The notes below the pieces were generated by a model. The model was not told where the DNA came from and made no database searches. It saw nothing but the letters and a program-made list of their open reading frames with translations. A stretch of DNA of 64,000 bases from Leptotrichia sp. oral taxon 221 (GTDB taxonomy: Bacteria > Fusobacteriota > Fusobacteriia > Fusobacteriales > Leptotrichiaceae). Shown piece after piece: positions 3,642-35,235 of the stretch (its first letter is position 1; each line of letters begins with the position of its first letter). The stretch is from contig NZ_CP072378.1 of assembly GCF_018128245.1 (NCBI RefSeq), positions 1,426,001 to 1,490,000 on the forward strand. The letters run 5' to 3'. A program made the position numbers and the translations under genes.

Positions 3642-6212
3642 ATGGAACAAAACTTTACGCAAAAAAGTATGAGTGCCATCTCGGAAGCTCATAACTTTGC
3701 GATTAGATATAAACATTCCGAGATAAAAACGGAGCATTTACTTCTTGCTTTGATTAATCAAATGGATGGACTTATTCCTAACATTCTACAAAAGATGGGA
3801 ATTAATCCTACCGAATTGACTAAAAAGCTTGAGGCAAAATTGAATAGTATGCCGAAAATTGAAGGTGGAGTTGGTGAAGTAAGACCGAACGCTGAAGTTA
3901 ATAGAATAATTGTCGGTGCTGAAGATTATGCTAAAAAGATGGGTGACAGCTACATTAGTACAGAGCACTTGTTTCTTGCGGCATTTGATAACAACTCTTT
4001 CTTGAAGGAAAATGGCGTTAATAAAAAACAATTTGAAAATGTATTAAATGAAGTTAGAGGAGGTAGAAAAATTATGACAGACAACCCTGAAAGTACTTAC
4101 GAAGCATTAGATAAGTTTGGTAAGGATTTGGTTGAGTTGGCGAGAAAAGGTAAATTGGACCCAATAATTGGTCGTGATCAGGAAATTCGTCGTGCAATCC
4201 AAATTTTATCAAGAAGAAATAAAAATAATCCGATTTTAATTGGGGAACCTGGTGTTGGTAAAACTGCTATCGCCGAAGGAATTGCTCAGAGAATCTTGAA
4301 AGGAGATGTGCCTGAAAACTTGAAGGATAAAACAATCTTTTCATTGGATTTAGGAGCGTTGGTAGCTGGTGCTAAATATCGTGGGGAATTTGAAGAAAGA
4401 TTAAAAGCGGTTCTTGAAGAAATTGAAAATAGTGAAGGTAGAATAATTTTATTCATTGATGAAGTTCATAACATCGTTGGAGCTGGGAAAACTGAAGGTT
4501 CAATGGATGCTGGAAACCTTTTAAAACCAATGCTTGCTCGTGGTGAAGTAAAAGTAATTGGTGCAACAACAATTGATGAATATAGAAAATATATTGAAAA
4601 AGATGCGGCTCTTGAAAGAAGATTCCAACCAGTAATGGTTAATGAGCCAACAATTGAAGATACAATTTCAATTCTTCGTGGATTGAAGGAAAAATTTGAA
4701 ATCTTCCATGGAATTAGAATAACTGACAATGCGATAGTTACTGCTGCAACAATGAGTGACAGATATATTAATGACAGATTTTTGCCAGATAAAGCGATTG
4801 ACTTGATTGATGAAGCTGCTGCGAAGGTAAAAACTGAAATTAATTCGATGCCAGTTGAATTGGATGAAATTACAAGAAGATTGATGCAATTGGAAATTGA
4901 AAAAGTTGCATTGAGTAAAGAAACTGACAAGGCTTCTAAAGAAAGATTGACTACTCTTGAAAAGGAAATTGCTGATTTGAAGGATGAAGAAAAAGAATTG
5001 AAATCACAATGGGAAAGAGAAAAACAAGAAGCTGGAAAAGTTGCTAAAATTAATGAAGAAATTGAAAAAATTAAATTGCAAATTGAAGAAGCTCAAAGAA
5101 AAAATGACTATAATAAATTGGCTGAACTTCAATATGGTAAATTGCCAGAATTAGAAAAACAAAAAGAAGCTGAAGAAGAAAAAGCTAAAGATAATTCTTC
5201 TGTTGCAAATAAATTATTGAAACAAGAAATTGACAGTGAAGAAATTGCTGAAGTTGTAGGAAAATGGACAGGAATTCCAGTTGCGAAATTGTTGCAAGGG
5301 GAAAGAGAAAAAATCTTACACTTGGCTGAACATATGATGAAAAGAGTAATTGGACAAGATGATGCAATCAAAACTATTAGCGATACAATCATTCGTTCTC
5401 GTGCTGGATTAAAAGATCCAAACAGACCAATCGGTTCGTTCATATTCTTAGGACCTACTGGTGTTGGTAAAACTTATTTGACTAAGACATTAGCATTTAA
5501 CTTGTTTGATGATGAAGACAATATTGTAAGAATTGATATGTCGGAATATATGGATAAATTCAGCGTCACTAGATTAATAGGAGCGCCTCCAGGATATGTT
5601 GGATACGAAGAAGGTGGACAATTAACAGAAGCTGTTAGAAGAAAACCTTATTCTGTAATCCTATTTGATGAAATTGAAAAAGCACATCCTGATGTATTCA
5701 ATGTATTGTTACAATTATTAGACGACGGTAGACTTACTGACGGTAAAGGTAAAATCGTTGACTTCAAAAACACAATTGTAATTATGACATCAAACATTGG
5801 TAGTGAAATCATCTTGAATGACCCAATGGTAAGCGAACCTACAAAAGAAGCCGTTTTAGATGAAATGAAACATAGATTTAAACCAGAATTCTTAAACAGA
5901 ATTGACGATATCATTGTGTTTAAAGCATTAGGAAAAGAAAGCGTTAAAAACATTGTTAATCTTATCCTTGAAGGTATTAACGAAAGATTGAAAGAACAAT
6001 ACATCAAAGTTGAATTTACTGATAAAGCGTTGGATTACATCGTAGACGAAGCATACGACCCAGCTTACGGTGCAAGACCATTGAAACGATTTGTGCAAAA
6101 GGATATTGAAACTAATTTATCTAAAATGATTTTAGGTGGAGAAGTTCCTGAAAATAGTGTTGTTAAAGTTGATAGTGATGGTAAAGATTTGATTTATAAA
6201 GTAGAAAAATAA
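3642..6212 (+). CDS. clpB: ATP-dependent chaperone ClpB
   Basis: 856 residues from ATG 3642, preceded by AAGGTGA. An in-frame GTG at 3633 lies inside the ribosome site and is less likely. ClpB is a hexameric AAA+ disaggregase that works with DnaK in the cytosol. Visible parts are the double Clp N-domain (residues 1-145), Walker A GEPGVGKT (201-208) with Walker B LFIDEVHN, a long charged coiled-coil middle domain (about 400-525) that distinguishes ClpB from ClpA/ClpC, the second Walker A GPTGVGKT (604-611), and the C-terminal D2-small domain. The length is normal. It is controlled by a CIRCE operator and ends at a hairpin at 6281-6308. Confidence 0.97.
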
Positions 6213-6280
6213 AAGAAAATAATTTTAGATTAGTCTTTTGAAATTAATTCTTAAAAATTAATTTTCTAAAAACAGAAAAG

Positions 6281-6308
6281 GAAGTATCAGAAGTGGTACT
6301 TCTTTTTT
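6281..6308 (+). terminator. clpB terminator
   Basis: GAAGTA and TACTTC pair around a 10-base loop, followed by six T. It is a short but correctly placed intrinsic terminator about 70 bp after the clpB stop. Confidence 0.72.
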
Positions 6309-6384
6309 GTATTTATACTTGAATCTATTTAAAATCAAATTACTAAAATTATATAAATTTAGATTTTGAGTAAGGAGACATAAC

Positions 6385-6419
6385 TTTTGAGTTTAATCTT
6401 AAAGTAGTTTTACTATAAT
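6385..6419 (+). repeat. 35-bp dispersed motif, upstream copy
   Basis: This 35-base stretch beginning TTTTGAGT matches the inverted copy at 10127-10161 at 31 of 35 positions (counted by eye). All four differences are transitions. The pair brackets the oxidoreductase gene. It ends in TATAAT, so it could also contribute promoter activity. Confidence 0.65.
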
Positions 6420-6501
6420 ATGAATGAAATATAACATTTTACTAAATTTTATCAAAATTATATTACTCTACAATTTAACAAAAAAATTAAACTACCACAG
6501 T

Positions 6502-6530
6502 TGAATTTTGTAAAATAATAAGATAAAATA
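6502..6530 (+). promoter_or_regulatory. Candidate promoter of the interrupted oxidoreductase gene
   Basis: TTGAAT, exactly 17 bp, TAAAAT, placed 46 bp before the ATG at 6577. A strong ribosome site GAAGGAG (6562-6568) follows. The rest of 6213-6576 holds only the clpB terminator and the 35-bp motif. Confidence 0.5.
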
Positions 6531-6576
6531 CAAATAAAGATTATTTGAAGTATATTTTCAAGAAGGAGAATTAACT

Positions 6577-9500
6577 ATGAAAAAAGATTTAAAATGGGAT
6601 AGATAACTGTTATTAAAAATATATAAAAAACAAAAATATATATTAATAATTGTATAGAAAACCCCTATTTCAGTAGCAATGCTGAGATAGCTTGAATTTA
6701 AAACTAGGAAACCCTAAAGATTTAGATAACTACAGCATAGCTGGAAACAGCAAGTGCGAATGTGGCGAAAGCAGAAAAAATATTTAAATATGAACTATGG
6801 TGAAATAAAAGCTATATACTTAATCAGTTATTGAGATGTGACATCTGATTATTTATATAGTCCTAAGGTTACGTTAAATATAAAAAATCAATAACATAGT
6901 ATTTAACTATTACAATGGGTGTTTAGTTACCAATCATCTAAGGCTAGTTAAGTTATGATGAAGGTTCAACGACTAGGTGGTTGAGCCACCCTTTTAAAAA
7001 AAGATAACTAGAAAAAAACTAGGAAAGTAAAACTGTAAGCAGATATATTGACACGGCTTTATATCAATGACAGAAGAAAAATATTCACAGCCTTAATTTT
7101 TTAAGGTTGAACAAATAGTCTACACTAATATGAAAATATTAGAAGTCTACCAGCAATGGAAAGACTGCTTTGATAGTTGCGCATCAAGGTGAATGCATAA
7201 AAAGTCTATAATAAAATATAAAATAAACAAGAAAATGTTGATTTTTGTATATTGTTATGCTATGCTAATATCAAGGAGTGATAAAAGATGTTAAGTATAG
7301 GAAAATTTGCAAAATCTTTAGGAGTGAGTATTCAAACTCTAAGAAACTGGGATAAGGAAGGAAAATTAAAACCTACTTATGTTACAGAAAATGGATATAG
7401 ATACTATTCCGAAGATTTACTAAATAAATTTAGAAATATCAAAAATGTTAATAAAATAAAGAAAAAAAATATATTATATGCAAGAGTGTCTACTAAGAAT
7501 CAAAAAGATGAATTAAATAGACAAATTGATAATCTAAAGCAATATGCTTATAGTAAAGGATATTCTTTTGAAATAATAACTGATATTGGAAGTGGAATAA
7601 ATTATAAAAAAGAAGGTCTTTTAAAAATGATAAATTTAGTTGAATGTGGAGAAGTTGACAGAATAATTGTCTTATATAAAGACAGACTTATAAGATTTGG
7701 CTATGATTTAATTGAATACATTTGCAAACTTAATGATACTAAAATAGAAATAGTAGATAATTCTACTATTTCTAAGGAACAGGAACTAACAGAAGATTTA
7801 ATACAAATTATAACTGTTTTTGCAAACAAACTGTATGGAGCAAGAAGAAAAAAAACAATTAATTTGATAAAGAGTGTAAAAGAAAATGCTGATAGGTAAA
7901 AAAATCAGAATAAAAACAACTCCTGAACTAGAAATATTATTTAGAAAATGTGCAGGTGTTGCAAGATTTTCTTACAATCTAATGATTAGTTTAAATAATA
8001 GTTCCCAAAAGTTTATTAAGGAAAGTGATGTGCGAAAATATGTAACGCAGTTAAAAAAACAGGACAATTACAGCTGGTTAAAAGAAGTTAGTGCTAATAT
8101 CCCTAAACAGGCAATAAAAAACTGTGGGAAAGCATACTCCGATTATTTCAAAAAGTTAAGAGGAAAACCTAAATTTAAAAAGAAATTCAAAAATGACCGT
8201 TTCTATGTGAATTATGAGAGCTTGAAAAAAACAAATTTAGGATTTAAAGCTGAAAAATTAGGAGAAATAAGAACTAGCGAACCATTACCTGAAGCCAAAC
8301 AATATTATAATCCATATATTGTATATGACAATAAATATTGGTATCTAACATTTTCTATTGAAACAGAGTGTATAAAAGAGCAATTAAATGATTTTACACT
8401 TGGAATTGATTTAGGAATAAAGCATTTTGTAGTAACATCACAAAATGAAATTATACCAAATATAAATAAGACTTTGACAATGAAAAAACTTTACAAGAAA
8501 ATAAAAAGATACCAAAGAAAACTTACAAAGTGTTTAAAAAATAGTTTTAATAGAATTAAAGTTTTAAAACAGCTTAGGCGATTGTTTAGAAGACAAAAAA
8601 ATATCAGAAATAATCATATACATCAAGCAACTTCACATTTGGTAAAAACCAAGCCAAGTAAAATAGTTGTTGAGTATTTGAGAGTTTCTAATATACTTAA
8701 AAACAAAAGATTATCAAAAGCAATATCTGAAAGTGGATTTTATGAATTTAGAAGACAACTTGAATATAAATGTAAATTAAGAAATATTAAATTTATGTTA
8801 GCAGATACATTTTTTCCAAGTAGTAAAAAATGTTCTAACTGTGGAAATATAAAAAAAGATTTAACATTGAAAGATAGAACTTATAAATGCGATTGCTGTG
8901 GTCTTGAAATAGATAGAGACTATAATGCAAGTCTTAATTTAAGCAAATTATAATAACAATATGAAAAATTAATATACCGTTCGATATGCGGGAATTTAAG
9001 TCTGTGGAGAGTTAGAAAAACTTGTCAATTTTATTCGGCAAGAACTTTATGAAACAGAAAGTTGAATTAGTGATAATCAACATAATAAAAGTTTATTTTG
9101 ATTTTTATAGACTTTTTATATCGGCAGTTTTAGGAACAGGAATAATTGCTAATGAAATGGCACAAGCTCTTGAAAAAATGGGTAAAAATCTTTATGCAGT
9201 TGCTAACAGAACTCATGGAAAAGCTGTAGATCTTGCGAAAAAATATGGGGTTGAAAAAGTTTATGATAAAATAGAAGATATGTTTTCTGATGATGAAACT
9301 GATATTATCTACATTGCTACATCTCATAATACGCACATAAAGTTTATGATTGAAGCATTGAAAAATGGAAAACATGTATTATGCGAAAAATCAATTTCAT
9401 TAAATAGCGAAGAATTGGAAGAAGCTGTAAAATTGGCAAAAGAAAAAAATCTTATCTTAGGCGAAGCAATGACAATTTTTAATATGCCACTTTATACTGA

Positions 9501-10083
9501 ACTTTTGGAAATTGTAAATTCTGGAAAACTTGGCGATGTGAAAATGATACAAGTTAATTTTGGAAGTTACAAGGAATATGATATGACAAACAGATTTTTC
9601 AATAGAAATCTTGCAGGAGGAGCGTTGCTTGATATAGGTGTTTATGCAATTTCAATTACAAGATTATTCATGACTTCAAAACCTAATAACGTACTTTCTC
9701 AAGTGAAATATGCACCAACAGGAGTGGACGAACAAGTAGGTATAATTATGATGAATAAAGAACAACAAATGTCAACAATCGCTCTTACACTTCATTCAAA
9801 ACAGCCAAAAAGAGTTGTAATCGCTTGTGAAAAAGCATACATTGAAATCACAGAATATCCAAGAGCTGACAAAGCTAAAATCGTTTATACTGAAACAGGT
9901 GAAGTTCAAGAAATTCTATCAGGAATAACAGCAAATGCACTTCAATATGAACTTCAAAATATGGAAGAATCTGTAAGAACTGGAATTAATAAAATGAAAC
10001 TTGATTATACGGTGGATGTTATGGATATTATGACAAAATTGCGTAAAGAGTGGGGAATGACTTATCCTGAAGAGGAAGTGTAA
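6577..10083 (+). CDS. Gfo/Idh/MocA-family oxidoreductase gene split by an IStron (exons 6577-6597 and 9124-10083)
   Basis: Exon 1 reads MKKDLKW after a good ribosome site and then hits a stop within the inserted element. Exon 2 resumes in frame with AVLGTGIIANEMAQ, the first strand and glycine loop of a Rossmann fold. Joined they give 326 residues, the normal length of this NAD(P)-dependent family. Other family marks are CEKSI (the EKP-like motif) in the first domain and a C-terminal alpha/beta domain with GGALLDIGVY. Substrates are typically sugars, inositols or trans-dihydrodiols; none can be assigned here. The long frame from ATG 9022 begins inside the mobile element and is not the native start. 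Function depends on splicing of the intron. Confidence 0.85.
6598..7240 (+). ncRNA. Group I intron ribozyme core of the IStron
   Basis: The R element GTTCAACGACTAGG (6964-6977) and the S element AATAGTCT (7114-7121) are present. GACTA (6971-6975) and TAGTC (7116-7120) pair as P7. CCCTATTT near 6663-6670 can pair with the exon/left-end AAATGGG with one G-U, a possible internal guide. CTATTTCAG (6665-6673) pairs with CTGAGATAG (6682-6690), a candidate P2 that would compete with it. A GGTGG/CCACC hairpin follows R as P8. This is a self-splicing RNA whose 3' splice site lies at the far end of the element, after tnpB. The 3' boundary of the core is approximate, since downstream helices were not resolved. 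Confidence 0.82.
7288..7899 (+). CDS. tnpA: IS607-family serine recombinase TnpA
   Basis: 203 residues. Residues 1-50 are a MerR-like helix-turn-helix (SIGKFAKSLGVSIQTLRNWD with GYRYYSEDLL), and from about 65 there is a resolvase catalytic domain starting ILYARVSTKNQ, with the nucleophilic Ser in ARVST, and DRIIVLYKDRLIRFGYDLI later. HTH-before-catalytic-domain order is the hallmark of IS607 TnpA. It would excise the element as a circle and insert it at GG dinucleotides without target duplication. AAGGAG precedes the start. It overlaps tnpB by 14 bp, suggesting coupled translation. No disabling change is visible, so it may be active. Confidence 0.95.
   Translation: MLSIGKFAKSLGVSIQTLRNWDKEGKLKPTYVTENGYRYYSEDLLNKFRNIKNVNKIKKKNILYARVSTKNQKDELNRQIDNLKQYAYSKGYSFEIITDIGSGINYKKEGLLKMINLVECGEVDRIIVLYKDRLIRFGYDLIEYICKLNDTKIEIVDNSTISKEQELTEDLIQIITVFANKLYGARRKKTINLIKSVKENADR
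7886..8953 (+). CDS. tnpB: IS607-type TnpB RNA-guided nuclease
   Basis: 355 residues. The RuvC active site appears complete: Asp175 in GIDLGIKHF, Glu263 in VVEYLRVSN, and Asp343/345 in IDRDYNASLNL. A four-cysteine zinc ribbon (CSNCG and CDCCG, residues 316-339) sits before the last motif. TnpB uses an omega RNA made from the element's right end to cut DNA matching the flanking guide; in this element the guide would derive from the oxidoreductase second exon. Cutting of empty sites would favour retention of the element. Length and motifs suggest an intact enzyme, the ancestor type of Cas12. It is translated from within the end of tnpA. Confidence 0.94.
   Translation: MLIGKKIRIKTTPELEILFRKCAGVARFSYNLMISLNNSSQKFIKESDVRKYVTQLKKQDNYSWLKEVSANIPKQAIKNCGKAYSDYFKKLRGKPKFKKKFKNDRFYVNYESLKKTNLGFKAEKLGEIRTSEPLPEAKQYYNPYIVYDNKYWYLTFSIETECIKEQLNDFTLGIDLGIKHFVVTSQNEIIPNINKTLTMKKLYKKIKRYQRKLTKCLKNSFNRIKVLKQLRRLFRRQKNIRNNHIHQATSHLVKTKPSKIVVEYLRVSNILKNKRLSKAISESGFYEFRRQLEYKCKLRNIKFMLADTFFPSSKKCSNCGNIKKDLTLKDRTYKCDCCGLEIDRDYNASLNLSKL
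8940..9123 (+). ncRNA. Probable omega (guide) RNA scaffold / IStron right end
   Basis: This is the non-coding right end after tnpB, ending at the 3' splice site. It can form hairpins, for example CTTGTC with GGCAAG around a short loop. By family analogy the TnpB scaffold RNA spans the last part of tnpB and this stretch, and reads straight into the host exon (GCAGTTTTAGG) as guide. Splicing and guide production would compete for this same 3' end. Boundaries are inferred. Confidence 0.55.
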
Positions 10084-10103
10084 ACTTTTTTGTATAAATA
10101 ACT

Positions 10104-10243
10104 GAGAGTGTCCAGAATTTGTGTAAACTATAGTAAAACTGCTTTAAAATTAGACTCAAAAACTATAACTATTTTATTCAACTCTTAAATTTAAATAATT
10201 TTAAATAGTTTAATTTTAGTTACACAAAAATTTTTACACTCTC
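10104..10243. mobile_element. 140-bp MITE-like inverted-repeat element
   Basis: The ends are inverted repeats: GAGAGTGT (10104-10111) with ACACTCTC (10236-10243), and TGTGTAA with TTACACA further in. The TGTGTAAAC-type terminal sequence recalls IS256-family ends. There is no coding capacity. Outside it, TTTTTGTATAAA and TTTATACAAAAA add a second inverted repeat, so the whole can fold as a long stem starting just after the oxidoreductase stop and may act as a terminator. No target duplication was seen. The internal 35-base motif is repeated inverted at 6385-6419. The rest of 10084-10405 holds only a weak hairpin at 10337-10370. Confidence 0.55.
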
Positions 10244-30417: not shown

Positions 30418-33400
30418 TTAAATATCCACCGAAACCAACTTAGTCTCTCCAATCTCTTTATTCATAGTCACCCCATAAAGTCTATGAGATCCTTTCATCG
30501 TTTCTTTATTGTGTGTAATCAAGATAAATTGCGACTTATCGATAAATTTATGTAGCACTTCAACTATTTTTTGTGTATTTTTTTCATCTAACGCCGCTTC
30601 AATTTCATCAAAGAATGTAAATGGACTTGGTTTAAACATAAATATTGCCATTATGAAAGAAACTGCTAACATTGATTTTTCCCCTCCAGAAAGTAACATT
30701 AGTGTTTGTTCTGGCTTATTTTTGTATCTCACGCTTAATTCCAATCCAGTTTTTAATAAATCTTCAGGATTCGTCAATTTTATGCCACCTTCAGCACCAT
30801 TTAGAATAGTATCACACATGTACTTGAAATTCTCGCTAATTTTTTCATACGCAAGAGAAAATTTATTTGTAATTTCAACTTCAATCTCTCCAATTAGCTT
30901 GAAAAGAGCTTCTCTACTCTCAATCAAATCTTTTTTCTGATTAACAATGCTTGTGTAACGCTCATTTTCTCTCTCAAATTCCTCAATAGAAGCTAAATTT
31001 ACACTTCCAATTTCTTCTCTACTTTTTTGATTCATCGACAATTTTCGTTTTACAGCATTTAATTCATTCTCGTTTTTCAATTCAAAATATTCTTCATTTT
31101 CTTTGATTTTATCCTTTTCAATCGTTTCAAACTCATCTAACTGAGATTGTAATTCATTTTCATTTTTTAGAATTTTTTCCAACAATTTTTCATAATCATT
31201 TTTTTCACTCAAAATTCTCATTTCAATTTCTTTTATTTCTTGAATCAAGTCTCTTTCTCGTTTTTCAATCTCTTTTATAGTTATCTCAATTTTTTCAATT
31301 TCTTCAAGATTTTCTTGATTATCTAAAACTTTTTTATCAATTTCTTCTTTTTTAGAAGCAATTTTCGTCTCAAAATCCTCCTTCAAAAAATCTCTCTTTT
31401 TCTCAAATTCCAATAATTCCTGATATTCACGAATCAATTTATTGTAATCAGCTTCAATTTCTCTGTATCTTGCTTTATTGTTTTCTGTTTTTACCTTCAA
31501 AATTTCATATTCTGTTACAATCGTATTCAATTCATTAGTATATTCATCCAAATTACTAATTTTATCCAATTCCTTTTCCAAATATTCCAATTTAGAATTA
31601 TTTTCTACTATGTACTTTTCAATTTCCTTAACAATTCTCTCATTTTCTATAATTTTTTCTTGCTTTTCAGTGATAAAATTCTCATTTTCTGTAATTTCAT
31701 AATTTAAAGTTCTTAAAATTCTCTCTTTTTGACCAAATTTTAAATTAAAATTGTCATACTCTGCATTAAATTCTTCGTAATCCTTTAAAAATACACTAAA
31801 TTCATCTTGTATTTCTTTTTTTTCAGAATCTAATTTTGCTGCTTTTTCTGTAATTTCCTTTAATTTTTTTTCAAATCCTGTTATTTCACTAGAAATCGAC
31901 TGTAAATCCTTTTCTAATAGCTTTAATTCTTTTTTTCGTTCTAATAATTCGTCTTTCCCTCTAAAAGAATGTCCTCCTGTCATTCTACCACGAGCTGTAA
32001 TTATATCCCCTTCAAGCGTAACAATCCTGTCACTAAAACCATTTTTCGATAATTGAGCTCCTACATCCAAATTTTTTACAACAACCGCATTTCCATACGC
32101 AAATTGCACTATTTTCTCAAGACTTTTATCATATTTAACAATATTTCGTGCAAAATCAATCACACCTTCAACTTTTGGCAATTGCGACAACATTTTCCCA
32201 GTCTTAATATTTTCAATTGGTAAAAACGATGCTCTTCCAAGTTTTTTATCTTTCAAAATTTGAATACACTTTTTCCCAATATCAGTATTTTTTACAACAA
32301 TATCTTGAAATAATCCACCTGATAAAGTTTGAATAGCTTCCTCATATCCAACAGGAATATCAATCAAATTAACAAACGCACCAATCACGCCATCAATTTT
32401 TTCATTAAGAATATATTTTATTCCTCTATTAAACGTCTCGTTTTTCTCAATGATATTAATATTTGCTCGTCTTTTTGAATCTAAATTCTCATACTTATAT
32501 CTCAAATCATTTTTCTGACTATTAATTCTCGAATAATCACTTCTCAACTCATCAATTTCATCATCCAATTGTTTTATTTGAGCTTCTTTTTCTAATTTAA
32601 AACCTTCCTTTTCAGCCTTTTTATTCTCAAAATCATCTTTTTCATTTTGTATTTTTTCAATTTCTGATTGAATTTCTTTTTTCTCAACCAAATATTTTTT
32701 ACCCTCATTTTTCGCAGAAATAACCCTTTTTTCTAAATCTTCATTTTCCCCTCTAAGTTTAATTTTATCTACTTCAAAATCAGAATTTTTCTGAGTTCTC
32801 TTTTTAATTTCATCTTCAATATTACTTTTTTTCTCTTTTAATTCAAGAACCTTTTTCTCAACCTCGTCCTTTTGAGCTTTCTTCTCATTTAATGCCTTAT
32901 TTATTTGATCTAATTCTTCTTTCGATCTTTTAAGAATTTCCTCTTTTTCCTTCGTATCAACATCCAAATTCCCTTTTCTTTTATCTTTTTCATTCGCCTC
33001 AATTTCCAAATTAGAATGTTTTTTTACCAATTCAGAATACTCATTTTTCAAATTATCTGTCAAAGAAGTGTTTTCCTTATTCTCTTTCTTTTTAGCCGAT
33101 AATTTTTCAAAAAGTTCTTCCCTGTGATTATTTTCGCTTTCCCACTCTGAATTTTTCTTTAAAAATTCTTCTTGAACATTTTCCAATTTACTTTTCAATT
33201 GTTCACTTTTCGCCGTATAATCAGCCTTTAAAAGATTTTTTTCATTGATTCCATACTCTAAAATCATATATTTTTCAGTATCAATTTTTTGTGTATAACT
33301 CTTGAATAATCTAGCTTTTTCACTTTCTTTCTTCAAGTAATTAACTCTTACTTCTAAATCTTTTTCAACATAATCAATTTTCTCAATCTCATTTTTTACT

Positions 33401-33948
33401 TCTTTTAATTTTTTCTCAGAAATTTCCTTTTCATTTTTAGCTCTTTTTACTCCAGCTGCTTCCTCTATAATTTCCTTCAATTCCATTGGTGAAGAACTAA
33501 TTATTCTCTCTACTCTTCCTTGCCCAATTATCGAATATGCCTGTTTTCCAATTCCTGTATCAATAAATAAATTATTAATATCTTTCAATCGAACCTTCTT
33601 ATTATTCAATAAATACTCGTTTTCTCCTGATTTAAAAATTCTTCTCGTAATTTTTATTTCAGAAAAATCAATATCTAAGTATCTATCTTCATTTTCGATA
33701 ATCAGACTCACTTCTGCCATCGATTTTGGTTTCCTACTTTTACTACCAGAAAAAATAATATCCGAACTTTCTTTCGCACGGATATTTTTATAGCTCTGCT
33801 CTCCTAAAACCCATAAGATCGCATCCAAAATATTACTTTTTCCACTTCCATTTGGACCAACAATCGATGTTATTCCATTGTCGAATTCTACAACAGTTTT
33901 ATTTGCAAATGATTTAAAACCATTGATTTCTAGTGCTTTTAAATACAT
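30418..33948 (-). CDS. smc: Chromosome segregation protein SMC
   Basis: 1,176 residues, full length. It is the core of bacterial condensin. Visible parts are Walker A GPNGSGKSNIL (31-41) with the FKSFA start, two long coiled coils, the hinge around residues 510-660 (ending TLEGDIITARGRMTGGH), the ABC signature LLSGGEKSMLAVSFIMAI, and Walker B FTFFDEIEAALD near the end. The start is 3 bp after the stop of the sugar transferase gene, with GGGAGA as ribosome site, so smc appears to be transcribed from the polysaccharide cluster. Confidence 0.97.
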   Translation of the reverse strand: MYLKALEINGFKSFANKTVVEFDNGITSIVGPNGSGKSNILDAILWVLGEQSYKNIRAKESSDIIFSGSKSRKPKSMAEVSLIIENEDRYLDIDFSEIKITRRIFKSGENEYLLNNKKVRLKDINNLFIDTGIGKQAYSIIGQGRVERIISSSPMELKEIIEEAAGVKRAKNEKEISEKKLKEVKNEIEKIDYVEKDLEVRVNYLKKESEKARLFKSYTQKIDTEKYMILEYGINEKNLLKADYTAKSEQLKSKLENVQEEFLKKNSEWESENNHREELFEKLSAKKKENKENTSLTDNLKNEYSELVKKHSNLEIEANEKDKRKGNLDVDTKEKEEILKRSKEELDQINKALNEKKAQKDEVEKKVLELKEKKSNIEDEIKKRTQKNSDFEVDKIKLRGENEDLEKRVISAKNEGKKYLVEKKEIQSEIEKIQNEKDDFENKKAEKEGFKLEKEAQIKQLDDEIDELRSDYSRINSQKNDLRYKYENLDSKRRANINIIEKNETFNRGIKYILNEKIDGVIGAFVNLIDIPVGYEEAIQTLSGGLFQDIVVKNTDIGKKCIQILKDKKLGRASFLPIENIKTGKMLSQLPKVEGVIDFARNIVKYDKSLEKIVQFAYGNAVVVKNLDVGAQLSKNGFSDRIVTLEGDIITARGRMTGGHSFRGKDELLERKKELKLLEKDLQSISSEITGFEKKLKEITEKAAKLDSEKKEIQDEFSVFLKDYEEFNAEYDNFNLKFGQKERILRTLNYEITENENFITEKQEKIIENERIVKEIEKYIVENNSKLEYLEKELDKISNLDEYTNELNTIVTEYEILKVKTENNKARYREIEADYNKLIREYQELLEFEKKRDFLKEDFETKIASKKEEIDKKVLDNQENLEEIEKIEITIKEIEKRERDLIQEIKEIEMRILSEKNDYEKLLEKILKNENELQSQLDEFETIEKDKIKENEEYFELKNENELNAVKRKLSMNQKSREEIGSVNLASIEEFERENERYTSIVNQKKDLIESREALFKLIGEIEVEITNKFSLAYEKISENFKYMCDTILNGAEGGIKLTNPEDLLKTGLELSVRYKNKPEQTLMLLSGGEKSMLAVSFIMAIFMFKPSPFTFFDEIEAALDEKNTQKIVEVLHKFIDKSQFILITHNKETMKGSHRLYGVTMNKEIGETKLVSVDI

Positions 33949-33951
33949 TTT

Positions 33952-35235
33952 TTATCTCCCTTTTCCAAAAATAACAATATTTACTGTCTTTAACAACACT
34001 TTTACATCAAACAAAAGATCGTGATTTTTTATATAGTATAAATCGTATTGTAATTTTCTGTAAGCATCCTCAACACTTGCACCATACGGATACATTACTT
34101 GTGCCCAACCAGTAAGTCCAGGTTTTACAGTATGTCGCAAATTATAATACTTTATTTCCTTCTCTAATTGCTGAATAAAAAATTCTCTCTCAGGTCTAGG
34201 CCCTACAAAACTCATTTCTCCCTTTAAAACATTCCACAATTGAGGTAATTCATCAATTCTAGTTGCTCTCATGATTTTCCCCCACTTTGTAACTCTGTTA
34301 TCATTTTTCACTGCCCATTTTGGACCATCTTTTTCTGCATCAGTTGTCATCGAACGAAATTTTATAATTTTAAACGGTTTATTTCCCTCACCAATTCTTT
34401 CTTGTATAAAAAAAACAGGACCTTTTGACTCTAATTTAATTATTATCGCCGCTAAAATCATAATCGGAAAAACGCAAATACTGATTATTACTGCAAAAAT
34501 TAAATCTAATATTCTCTTTGCCTTCAAATTGAAACTATTATGATAAATTTCAAAACCTGTATTTTTCAAAAACCATTCTGGACTTAAATCTGAAATTGGT
34601 AATTTTCTTTCATACATTTCATAAAATTCCAAATAATTATAATACTGCATTCCTTCTAGCTTGTACTCCAACAATTTATCCACTAATTTCGCATCAGATA
34701 ACAAATTTTCAGAAAAATCAACTACAATATCCATTCTTTTTGATTTCCACAAATTTGTAATCGTTTTTTCTATCGTAGAACTTTCCTCATTTTTTAAAAA
34801 ACCAATCAATTTGTATTGCGCATCAACTTTAATACTTTCTAACAAATCATTCGTATATCCATTTTCACCAACGAACATAATTCTCTGTCTACCAACTAAT
34901 CCTGTAATGACGATATATCTAAATGCTATTTGAAACATCGCCATAATCCCAAAAATTATTATTCCCTCATAATAATTAAATATTTTCAAAAATATTGTTG
35001 CCAAAGCTATTATTACATTTATTCCAGTAACAATTATCATATCACGCAATCGATATTTACTCGTATAAACATTGAATACATTCGCTACGTAATACAAAAT
35101 CATCGCACCCACAATTACCAATGCATTTTTAAAACCAAGACCTCTATTCACAATTAGTAATCCAACAAAATAAACCATGACTACTAAAATTCCAAATAAA
35201 TAAGAATAATTTTTTCTTACACTACTTACTGCCAT
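33952..35235 (-). CDS. Undecaprenyl-phosphate sugar-1-phosphate transferase (initiating)
   Basis: 427 residues. The N-terminal half has about four membrane helices and a CoA-binding-like soluble part (IMFVGENGYTNDLLESIK). The C-terminal half is the bacterial sugar transferase domain: KRILDLIFAVIISICVFPIM, then GPVFFIQERIGEGNKPFKIIKFRSM, RVTKWGKIMRATRIDELPQLWNVLKGEMSFVGPRPE. It is of the WbaP/WcaJ polyisoprenyl-phosphate hexose-1-phosphate type and starts glycan assembly on the inner membrane. The sugar is not predictable. It ends the polysaccharide cluster, 3 bp before smc. Confidence 0.92.
   Translation of the reverse strand: MAVSSVRKNYSYLFGILVVMVYFVGLLIVNRGLGFKNALVIVGAMILYYVANVFNVYTSKYRLRDMIIVTGINVIIALATIFLKIFNYYEGIIIFGIMAMFQIAFRYIVITGLVGRQRIMFVGENGYTNDLLESIKVDAQYKLIGFLKNEESSTIEKTITNLWKSKRMDIVVDFSENLLSDAKLVDKLLEYKLEGMQYYNYLEFYEMYERKLPISDLSPEWFLKNTGFEIYHNSFNLKAKRILDLIFAVIISICVFPIMILAAIIIKLESKGPVFFIQERIGEGNKPFKIIKFRSMTTDAEKDGPKWAVKNDNRVTKWGKIMRATRIDELPQLWNVLKGEMSFVGPRPEREFFIQQLEKEIKYYNLRHTVKPGLTGWAQVMYPYGASVEDAYRKLQYDLYYIKNHDLLFDVKVLLKTVNIVIFGKGR

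Follow-up and report, generated by a model that had tools for sequence, protein, structure and literature searches.

The present analysis concerns an inserted element in a 64,000-nucleotide stretch of the genome of Leptotrichia sp. oral taxon 221 (contig NZ_CP072378.1, positions 1,426,001 to 1,490,000), referred to as the window, in which a gene for a Gfo/Idh/MocA oxidoreductase within 6577-10083 is split behind codon 7. The element at 6599-9124 is in all likelihood a group B IStron, that is, an IS607-type transposon which carries an IA2-type group I intron and which would operate by the complete mechanism proposed below. A first-pass annotation made from the sequence alone had already named it an IStron, and this identity is supported by an IS607 TnpA, a TnpB, covarying intron helices and empty insertion sites in related genomes. 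For the window copy itself, designated W, the chances that the intron still splices well appear roughly even; two derived substitutions in the intron and missense changes in the host gene mean that its splicing is not to be assumed. The features are listed in Table 1.

Host gene and insertion site

Exon 1 (6577-6597/8) and exon 2 (from 9124/5) join to give MKKDLKWAVLGTGIIANEMAQ..., and the host protein contains a Rossmann domain (PF01408, 1.5e-23) and a C-terminal domain (PF22725, 1.4e-17). A family search found homologues of the gene in 23 of 33 genomes, its own included. Nine orthologous loci were fetched, the closest outside the own genome (L045-L053), and all nine alignments run uninterrupted over the junction, so that the comparison with empty-site orthologues suggested in the first-pass annotation confirms that both exons belong to one Gfo/Idh/MocA gene; in two of these loci (L052, L053) the alignment takes in just 4-6 exon 1 bases, and the gene copy in L051 is broken and contains stops. 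Reading base by base gave TGG/GC at the junction in five orthologues (L045-L048 and L050), the anchor having missed L049, L052 and L053 and L051 having been left out. Removal of the element thus recreates the ancestral gene, and the exact restoration that had been predicted is real. The 5' flank is 91-92% identical across 398 bases in L045 and L046, which indicates that the insertion site itself is orthologous.

Since GG is present at both junctions, as had been noted earlier, removing 6597-9122, 6598-9123 or 6599-9124 yields the identical product. The span of 6598-9123 given in the first-pass annotation therefore leads to the correct protein, and the published convention of a GG-ending target and a CGG end places the element at 6599-9124 (2526 bp). 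The GG-ending target, the CGG 3' end and the lack of a target duplication in the empty-site comparison are those of group B. Exact restoration alone is no proof of splicing, however, since the same result is expected on removal of every IS607-type insertion that made no target duplication.

Table 1. Features of the interrupted oxidoreductase gene and its IStron, in window positions.
Feature	Positions	Strand	Basis or remarks
Exon 1 (MKKDLKW and first G) of the Gfo/Idh/MocA oxidoreductase gene	6577..6598	+	ends in target ATGGG; orthologues unbroken at junction
Probable group B IStron (IS607-type), complete, 2526 bp, ending ATATCGG	6599..9124	+	empty sites; 98% second copy with same ends elsewhere
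P1: exon GGG (6596-6598) with CCC (6662-6664), long AU hairpin between	6599..6664	+	minimum-energy folds
P2 hairpin	6665..6690	+	CTATTTCAG/CTGAGATAG; Fnu1 retains hairpin, letters changed
P2.1 hairpin GCTG-GAAA-CAGC	6740..6751	+	sibling: A-U replaces G-C at base
P3, 5' strand (partner 7081-7089)	6755..6763	+	hand-paired; 6757 is C
R element with P7 5' strand GACTA	6964..6975	+	motif
P7.1 (6976-6990) and P7.2 (7008-7022) hairpins	6976..7022	+	between P7 and P3; Fnu1 retains both, letters changed (by eye)
P8 hairpin	7091..7106	+	
S element, P7 3' strand TAGTC (7116-7120), then P9.0 dinucleotide CA (7123-7124)	7116..7124	+	
P9, P9.1, P9.2	7125..7189	+	covariation
AU-rich IR stem, 5' strand	7197..7228	+	29 pairs with 9091-9119
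tnpA, IS607-family serine transposase, 203 aa	7288..7899	+	NCBIfam transpos_IS607, 2.2e-63
tnpB, RNA-guided nuclease, 355 aa; D175, E263, D345; CxxC 316/319, 335/338	7886..8953	+	guided_TnpB, 7.5e-75
Guide-RNA (omega RNA) scaffold	8955..9124 (5' limit approximate)	+	RAGATH-18 core at 9001-9060
AU-rich IR stem, 3' strand	9091..9119	+	also within guide-RNA scaffold
Exon 2, remainder of oxidoreductase	9125..10083	+	orthologue alignments

Structure of the intron

For the 5' 600 bases of the element, the predicted fold is that of a group I intron of the IA2 type. This part was compared with a sibling copy in the same genome (C2), with an element of Fusobacterium phage Fnu1, with the IStron SrISt1 (L092), which has been published as a group B member from Selenomonas ruminantium, and with group A type introns. 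The R and S elements described in the first-pass annotation were found again, and their strands GACTA and TAGTC form P7; a pattern of R plus a C-rich stretch, derived from this very sequence, matches once in the window and in none of 100 shuffles. The hairpins P7.1 and P7.2 are named as IA2 features of IStrons and are followed by P9.0, P9.1 and P9.2 in the excerpts of the 2014 survey to which all our statements on it refer (PMC4227781). In W, C2, Fnu1 and SrISt1 alike, the fold of minimum energy pairs the exon GGG with a CCC of the intron.

The helices behind the core carry most of the comparative evidence. In a set of 15 introns, 11 of them distinct, P9 reached a covariation score of 0.842 as opposed to 0.228 in shuffled alignments, none of 500 being as high, with 94.8% of 77 cells paired, and slid versions of the helix scored at most 0.2. 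Further pair types were as frequent in one of 500 shuffles, and pairs changed on both sides were less striking (6 against 3.9 in shuffles; 25/500). When P9, P9.1 and P9.2 were taken together in the introns of group B type, a set of four with two members 98% alike, 84 of 84 cells were paired with 10 two-sided pair changes, a result equalled by none of 500 shuffles (further types: 3/500). The duplex of the following stem has an energy of -31.0 kcal/mol, against -10.2 +/- 2.6 for 200 letter shuffles, and the values are -30.4 in C2 and -21.5 in Fnu1 (shuffles of the latter: -11.8 +/- 2.8). Judged by this pairing, the stem after P9.2 is the AU-rich inverted-repeat (IR) stem of group B, which encloses the open reading frames (ORFs). 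Apart from its first base, A, the predicted element agrees with group B in the structural features compared.

These results also bear on the reading in which the element is an ordinary IS607 whose precise DNA excision restores the gene, and the RNA structure in its first 600 bases is a passenger that does not splice. As stated above, removing any insertion without target duplication has this effect, and a motif search of 44 viral contigs detected no such intron core in the 35 whose sequence extends 2000 bases or more upstream of the RAGATH 15-mer; the remaining nine have less sequence there, among them Fnu1, which has an intron. However, the core motifs are conserved, covary and are common to SrISt1, as well as to the group A introns, and both full copies in the genome are located within genes, in sense orientation. 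We consider this explanation very improbable.

Several points weigh against the identification as a group B IStron with an IA2-type intron, to which the base changes in W, the changes in its host gene and the basis of the guide assignment, all discussed below, have to be added. The IA2 assignment rests on P7.1, P7.2 and P9.0-P9.2, with P4-P6 not assigned. The P1 folds of W, C2 and Fnu1 barely beat shuffled sequences (z of -1.16, -0.71 and -1.25; SrISt1: -5.02), and P3 was paired by hand in the group B introns and is ambiguous in the group A introns. The first intron base is A in W, C2 and Fnu1, and published group B elements, the groups being defined by target, ends and IS family, have U (PMC4227781). 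The search with a group I covariance model, which the first-pass annotation had recommended, gave nothing at the Rfam cut-off, and what the Rfam model Intron_gpI returned was just 17.0 bits on a short stretch (E 0.088), nearly a non-match. The sibling intron (L010) and five group A introns (L012-L014) are likewise unreported by this model at E<=1, in a search that covered more sequence (62,505 bases) and applied stricter filters. Rfam as the sole intron test was rejected as too insensitive for these introns.

Transposase, TnpB and guide RNA

Both protein genes described as intact in the first-pass annotation are indeed complete (Table 1), and the IS607-type ORF A and the TnpB-type ORF B lie downstream of P9.2, as in group B. 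In TnpA, the catalytic residue is presumably Ser68, going by the motif. The RuvC triad of TnpB was located by alignment to 8iaz, its closest solved relative, in which the third D faces an A. We take 8iaz to be the RAGATH-18-guided ISFba1 TnpB, because the D and E given in the excerpted part of PMC11061315 are offset by three residues from the chain; the A would then mark an inactivated construct.

A RAGATH-18 match, missed in the first-pass annotation, follows directly 3' of tnpB (36.1 bits, E 1.5e-4), which is below the Rfam cut-off of 44.9. When folded alone, the guide-RNA scaffold pairs into the right end of the element, and the final bases of the element are common to the intron IR stem and the guide RNA. 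Where the element is inserted, the letters in front of the guide are TCGG instead of TGGG, and the own genome contains no other site with at most two mismatches to the 17-base empty-site pattern. The assignment of the target-adjacent motif (TAM) and of the guide follows from position alone and counts among the points against the full reading.

Proposed mechanism

The empty sites suggest that TnpA, a serine transposase, inserted the element behind ATGGG without target duplication. In the transcript, the exon GGG would pair with the CCC guide of the intron to form P1, and the long AU stem would loop out the ORF block. By homology to BcISt1, a group B IStron from the Bacillus cereus group that was shown by reverse-transcription PCR to splice in vivo after a G (PMC4227781), the intron would then join the exons and restore the TGG codon and the frame. 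TnpB with its RAGATH-18 RNA may use the flank CAGTTTTAGG... as guide, the guide portion probably being the first ~16-20 bases of exon 2, with ATGGG as TAM. By cutting the emptied site, TnpB would cause the element to be copied back, in line with the retention role of TnpB described in the excerpts of PMC11870625. Since the last 30 bases would serve both the intron and the guide RNA, a single transcript is probably unable to do both.

The host protein could also be expressed without splicing, from a start in the right end of the element (TTG 9022 or ATG 9049) that replaces the first strand. The frame is open from 9022 to 10083. However, inspection by eye showed no clear ribosome site, the number of promoter-like matches in 6300-10200 (31) is close to that expected by chance (25.3 +/- 5.5), and such a start would be of no use to the sibling copy with its 3' exon of ~30 codons. 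This route is rated as quite unlikely.

Sibling copies and changes in the window intron

The second full copy, C2 (L010), is 97.8% identical to W over 2535 columns, has the same two ends and is located in a HAD-type hydrolase gene with the target ATGGG. Its site is empty in relatives, with ATGGG(A/G)AATGC in all six loci read out of 11 fetched (23 other genomes matched). A third copy is broken, with bases 1-229 and 410-979 of the element missing, and is located between ORFs. The two full copies are thus in genes and in the sense direction and the copy without the ribozyme is outside genes, which is merely suggestive because there are three copies in all.

Before tnpA, W and C2 differ by twelve substitutions and one gap. 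Three of the substitutions leave P2.1 paired and two break pairs, and these two may bear on how well the intron splices. At 6757 in P3, W has C, which results in a C.A mismatch, and U stands in each of the other aligned introns that have a letter at this position (14 of 14; V98 has a gap there, and the count includes close copies). At 7124, W has A, which breaks P9.0, and G is found in 37 of 40 distinct introns, the exceptions lacking G in the dinucleotide being W, L180, which is a weak match, and L097, whose intron is located in the nrd region of a phage; this count includes close copies as well. The P9.0 dinucleotide is CA in W as opposed to CG in the remaining four introns of group B type, and in all seven other elements with ends read it is complementary to the two bases preceding the last G, as UG with CAG in the group A introns A1, A2 and A5 and as CG with CGG in C2, Fnu1, SrISt1 and Acetoanaerobium (the 3' ends of the last two were taken from the CGG rule). 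Both changes in W are derived.

Changes were also found in the host gene, which compared with three agreeing relatives has eight private codon changes, five nonsynonymous and three synonymous. Between pairs of the relatives, the ratios of nonsynonymous to synonymous changes are 6:23, 14:37 and 14:31, and Fisher tests against these pairs gave 0.035, 0.097 and 0.118; with one value of three below 0.05, relaxed selection is merely hinted at. T72A and P74S alter the motif TTPHNTH, which is conserved in the relatives shown. All eight changes fall within codons 39-99 (window 9217-9399), and this clustering makes a single recombined tract a fair alternative, local mutation being another candidate. 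In the neighbouring clpB gene, in the part compared (from 5073), the only private change is synonymous (0:1).

These observations suggest another reading, namely that W is an IStron by descent with a ribozyme that is now too weak, so that the oxidoreductase is in effect interrupted and decaying with TnpA, TnpB and guide RNA intact. Both derived bases and the 5:3 ratio of nonsynonymous to synonymous host changes, which include the T and P of TTPHNTH, next to the 0:1 of clpB are in line with it. However, P2.1 remains paired in spite of three differences from C2, several group A introns seem to carry A.C in P3 too (judged by hand), and exon 2 is free of stops and frameshifts. Of the three comparisons of codon counts, just one falls below 0.05, and a recombined tract could explain the confined changes. 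We regard this reading as a real possibility, albeit one that falls short of being probable. Going further, W could be a natural splice-attenuated IStron, in which pairs are lost in P3 and P9.0 and TnpA, TnpB and guide RNA remain intact, so that transcripts are freed for guide-RNA use; the host gene would pay and decay, the 98% sibling would keep the strong intron, and one tetranucleotide, TGGG, would be recognised three times over, by the transposase, by P1 of the intron and, as TAM, by TnpB. This is speculative and rather unlikely. The group B IStron set out at the beginning is retained as the preferred identification of the element.

As a separate observation, the oxidoreductase together with the end of clpB (window 5072-10082) is ~96% identical to L045 and L046, from genomes filed under another genus, and the best matches of the HAD host gene in these genomes reach merely ~60-65% at the protein level. 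A transfer of the clpB-oxidoreductase stretch is possible.

Relation to known IStrons and distribution

SrISt1 resembles the window element in its IS607 TnpA, its TnpB, the form of P9.1 and P9.2 and a GGG target, and differs in that its intron starts with U instead of A and its TnpB is 41% identical. BcISt1, compared by description, shares the GG-ending target, the CGG end and the long AU-rich IR stem; its ORF A is described as degenerate and that of the window element is intact (PMC4227781). ISFba1 and the other IS607 TnpBs guided by RAGATH-18 have the same type of guide RNA and aligned catalytic motifs, whereas their TAMs are AGGAG or GAGGG (PMC11061315) and TGGG is proposed for the window TnpB; the word IStron is not used in the excerpts of that paper.

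The element of phage Fnu1 (1993 bp; L090 2814-4806, phage 32557-34549) is not annotated as an IStron and is located where a DUF1983 gene ends; the current annotation divides this gene into separate proteins. It has the target TTGGG, the CGG end and the RAGATH 15-mer, the frame runs on across its junction, and by eye its intron is the most similar to that of W among those aligned. In contrast to the window element, it resides in a phage, no TnpA is annotated or seen, and its TnpB is 49.6% identical. Phages such as Fnu1 could ferry such elements between fusobacteria. The TnpBs of Twort-type Staphylococcus phages are close to that of W (49%), and the intron core motif was not found in the Staphylococcus phage loci L091 and L096; in L097 (Staphylococcus phage vB_SepM_BE25), a group I core with a P9-like domain occurs at 806-1013 in the nrd region, 2.7 kb upstream of the TnpB gene.

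In the own genome, two full group B copies and one broken copy stand beside five group A type introns (G000:C1 1.52-1.54 Mb, 1.593 Mb and 0.261 Mb; L012-L014), three of which end in TCAG. Two of them, A3 and A4, have just ~210 bases after R in common and no whole element. Of three tested for frames across the joined site, A2 showed a clear sense frame, A1 a sense frame near a gene start and A5 no clear frame, with ends that were taken from copy alignments and may be off by target bases.

Across the phylum, a BLASTN search with the intron gave matches in 44 of 98 genomes, which outside the own genome are short stretches, many being the 30-base core motif. The model R1, built on 88 positions of four introns including W and run with stricter filters on at most 45 candidates per genome, gave matches in nine of the 98 genomes, its own included, and exceeded 100 bits in the own genome alone (two copies), the others reaching at most 64.6 bits. 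A TnpB relative was found at one locus in the genome contigs (L074, 40%), the single-protein query finding close relatives only. One genome (G077) has at least 30 matches to the P9 model, counted as matches rather than as complete elements, which exceeds the maximum of 24 IStrons per strain in the survey (PMC4227781).

The statement in the first-pass annotation that such elements are known from clostridia proved too narrow, as IStrons have also been reported from Bacilli, Negativicutes and Fusobacteria, with group A in Fusobacterium and in Leptotrichia buccalis (LbISt1) (PMC4227781). In the excerpts of this survey, group B is restricted to Firmicutes and C. botulinum phages, and no species has both groups. 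A literature search for IStrons with IS607 or TnpB returned only the 2014 survey and did not cover the 2024 Science paper, and a search for Fusobacterium phages with group I introns found none. In the Clostridium botulinum IS607 IStron studied by Zedaveinyte et al. in 2024, intron and guide RNA are said to compete.

The type of element is already known, and what may be new is a probable group B IStron in Fusobacteria, outside the range given in the survey excerpts if the phylum is right, together with a likely phage carrier in Fnu1. IStron introns of the IS607 type and of the IS200/IS605 type would occur in one genome, a combination not seen in any species in the excerpted text of the survey (PMC4227781). 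The near-identical pair of introns, one of which has broken core pairs, and the overlap of intron and guide RNA make the trade-off between splicing and guide-RNA use testable within a single genome.

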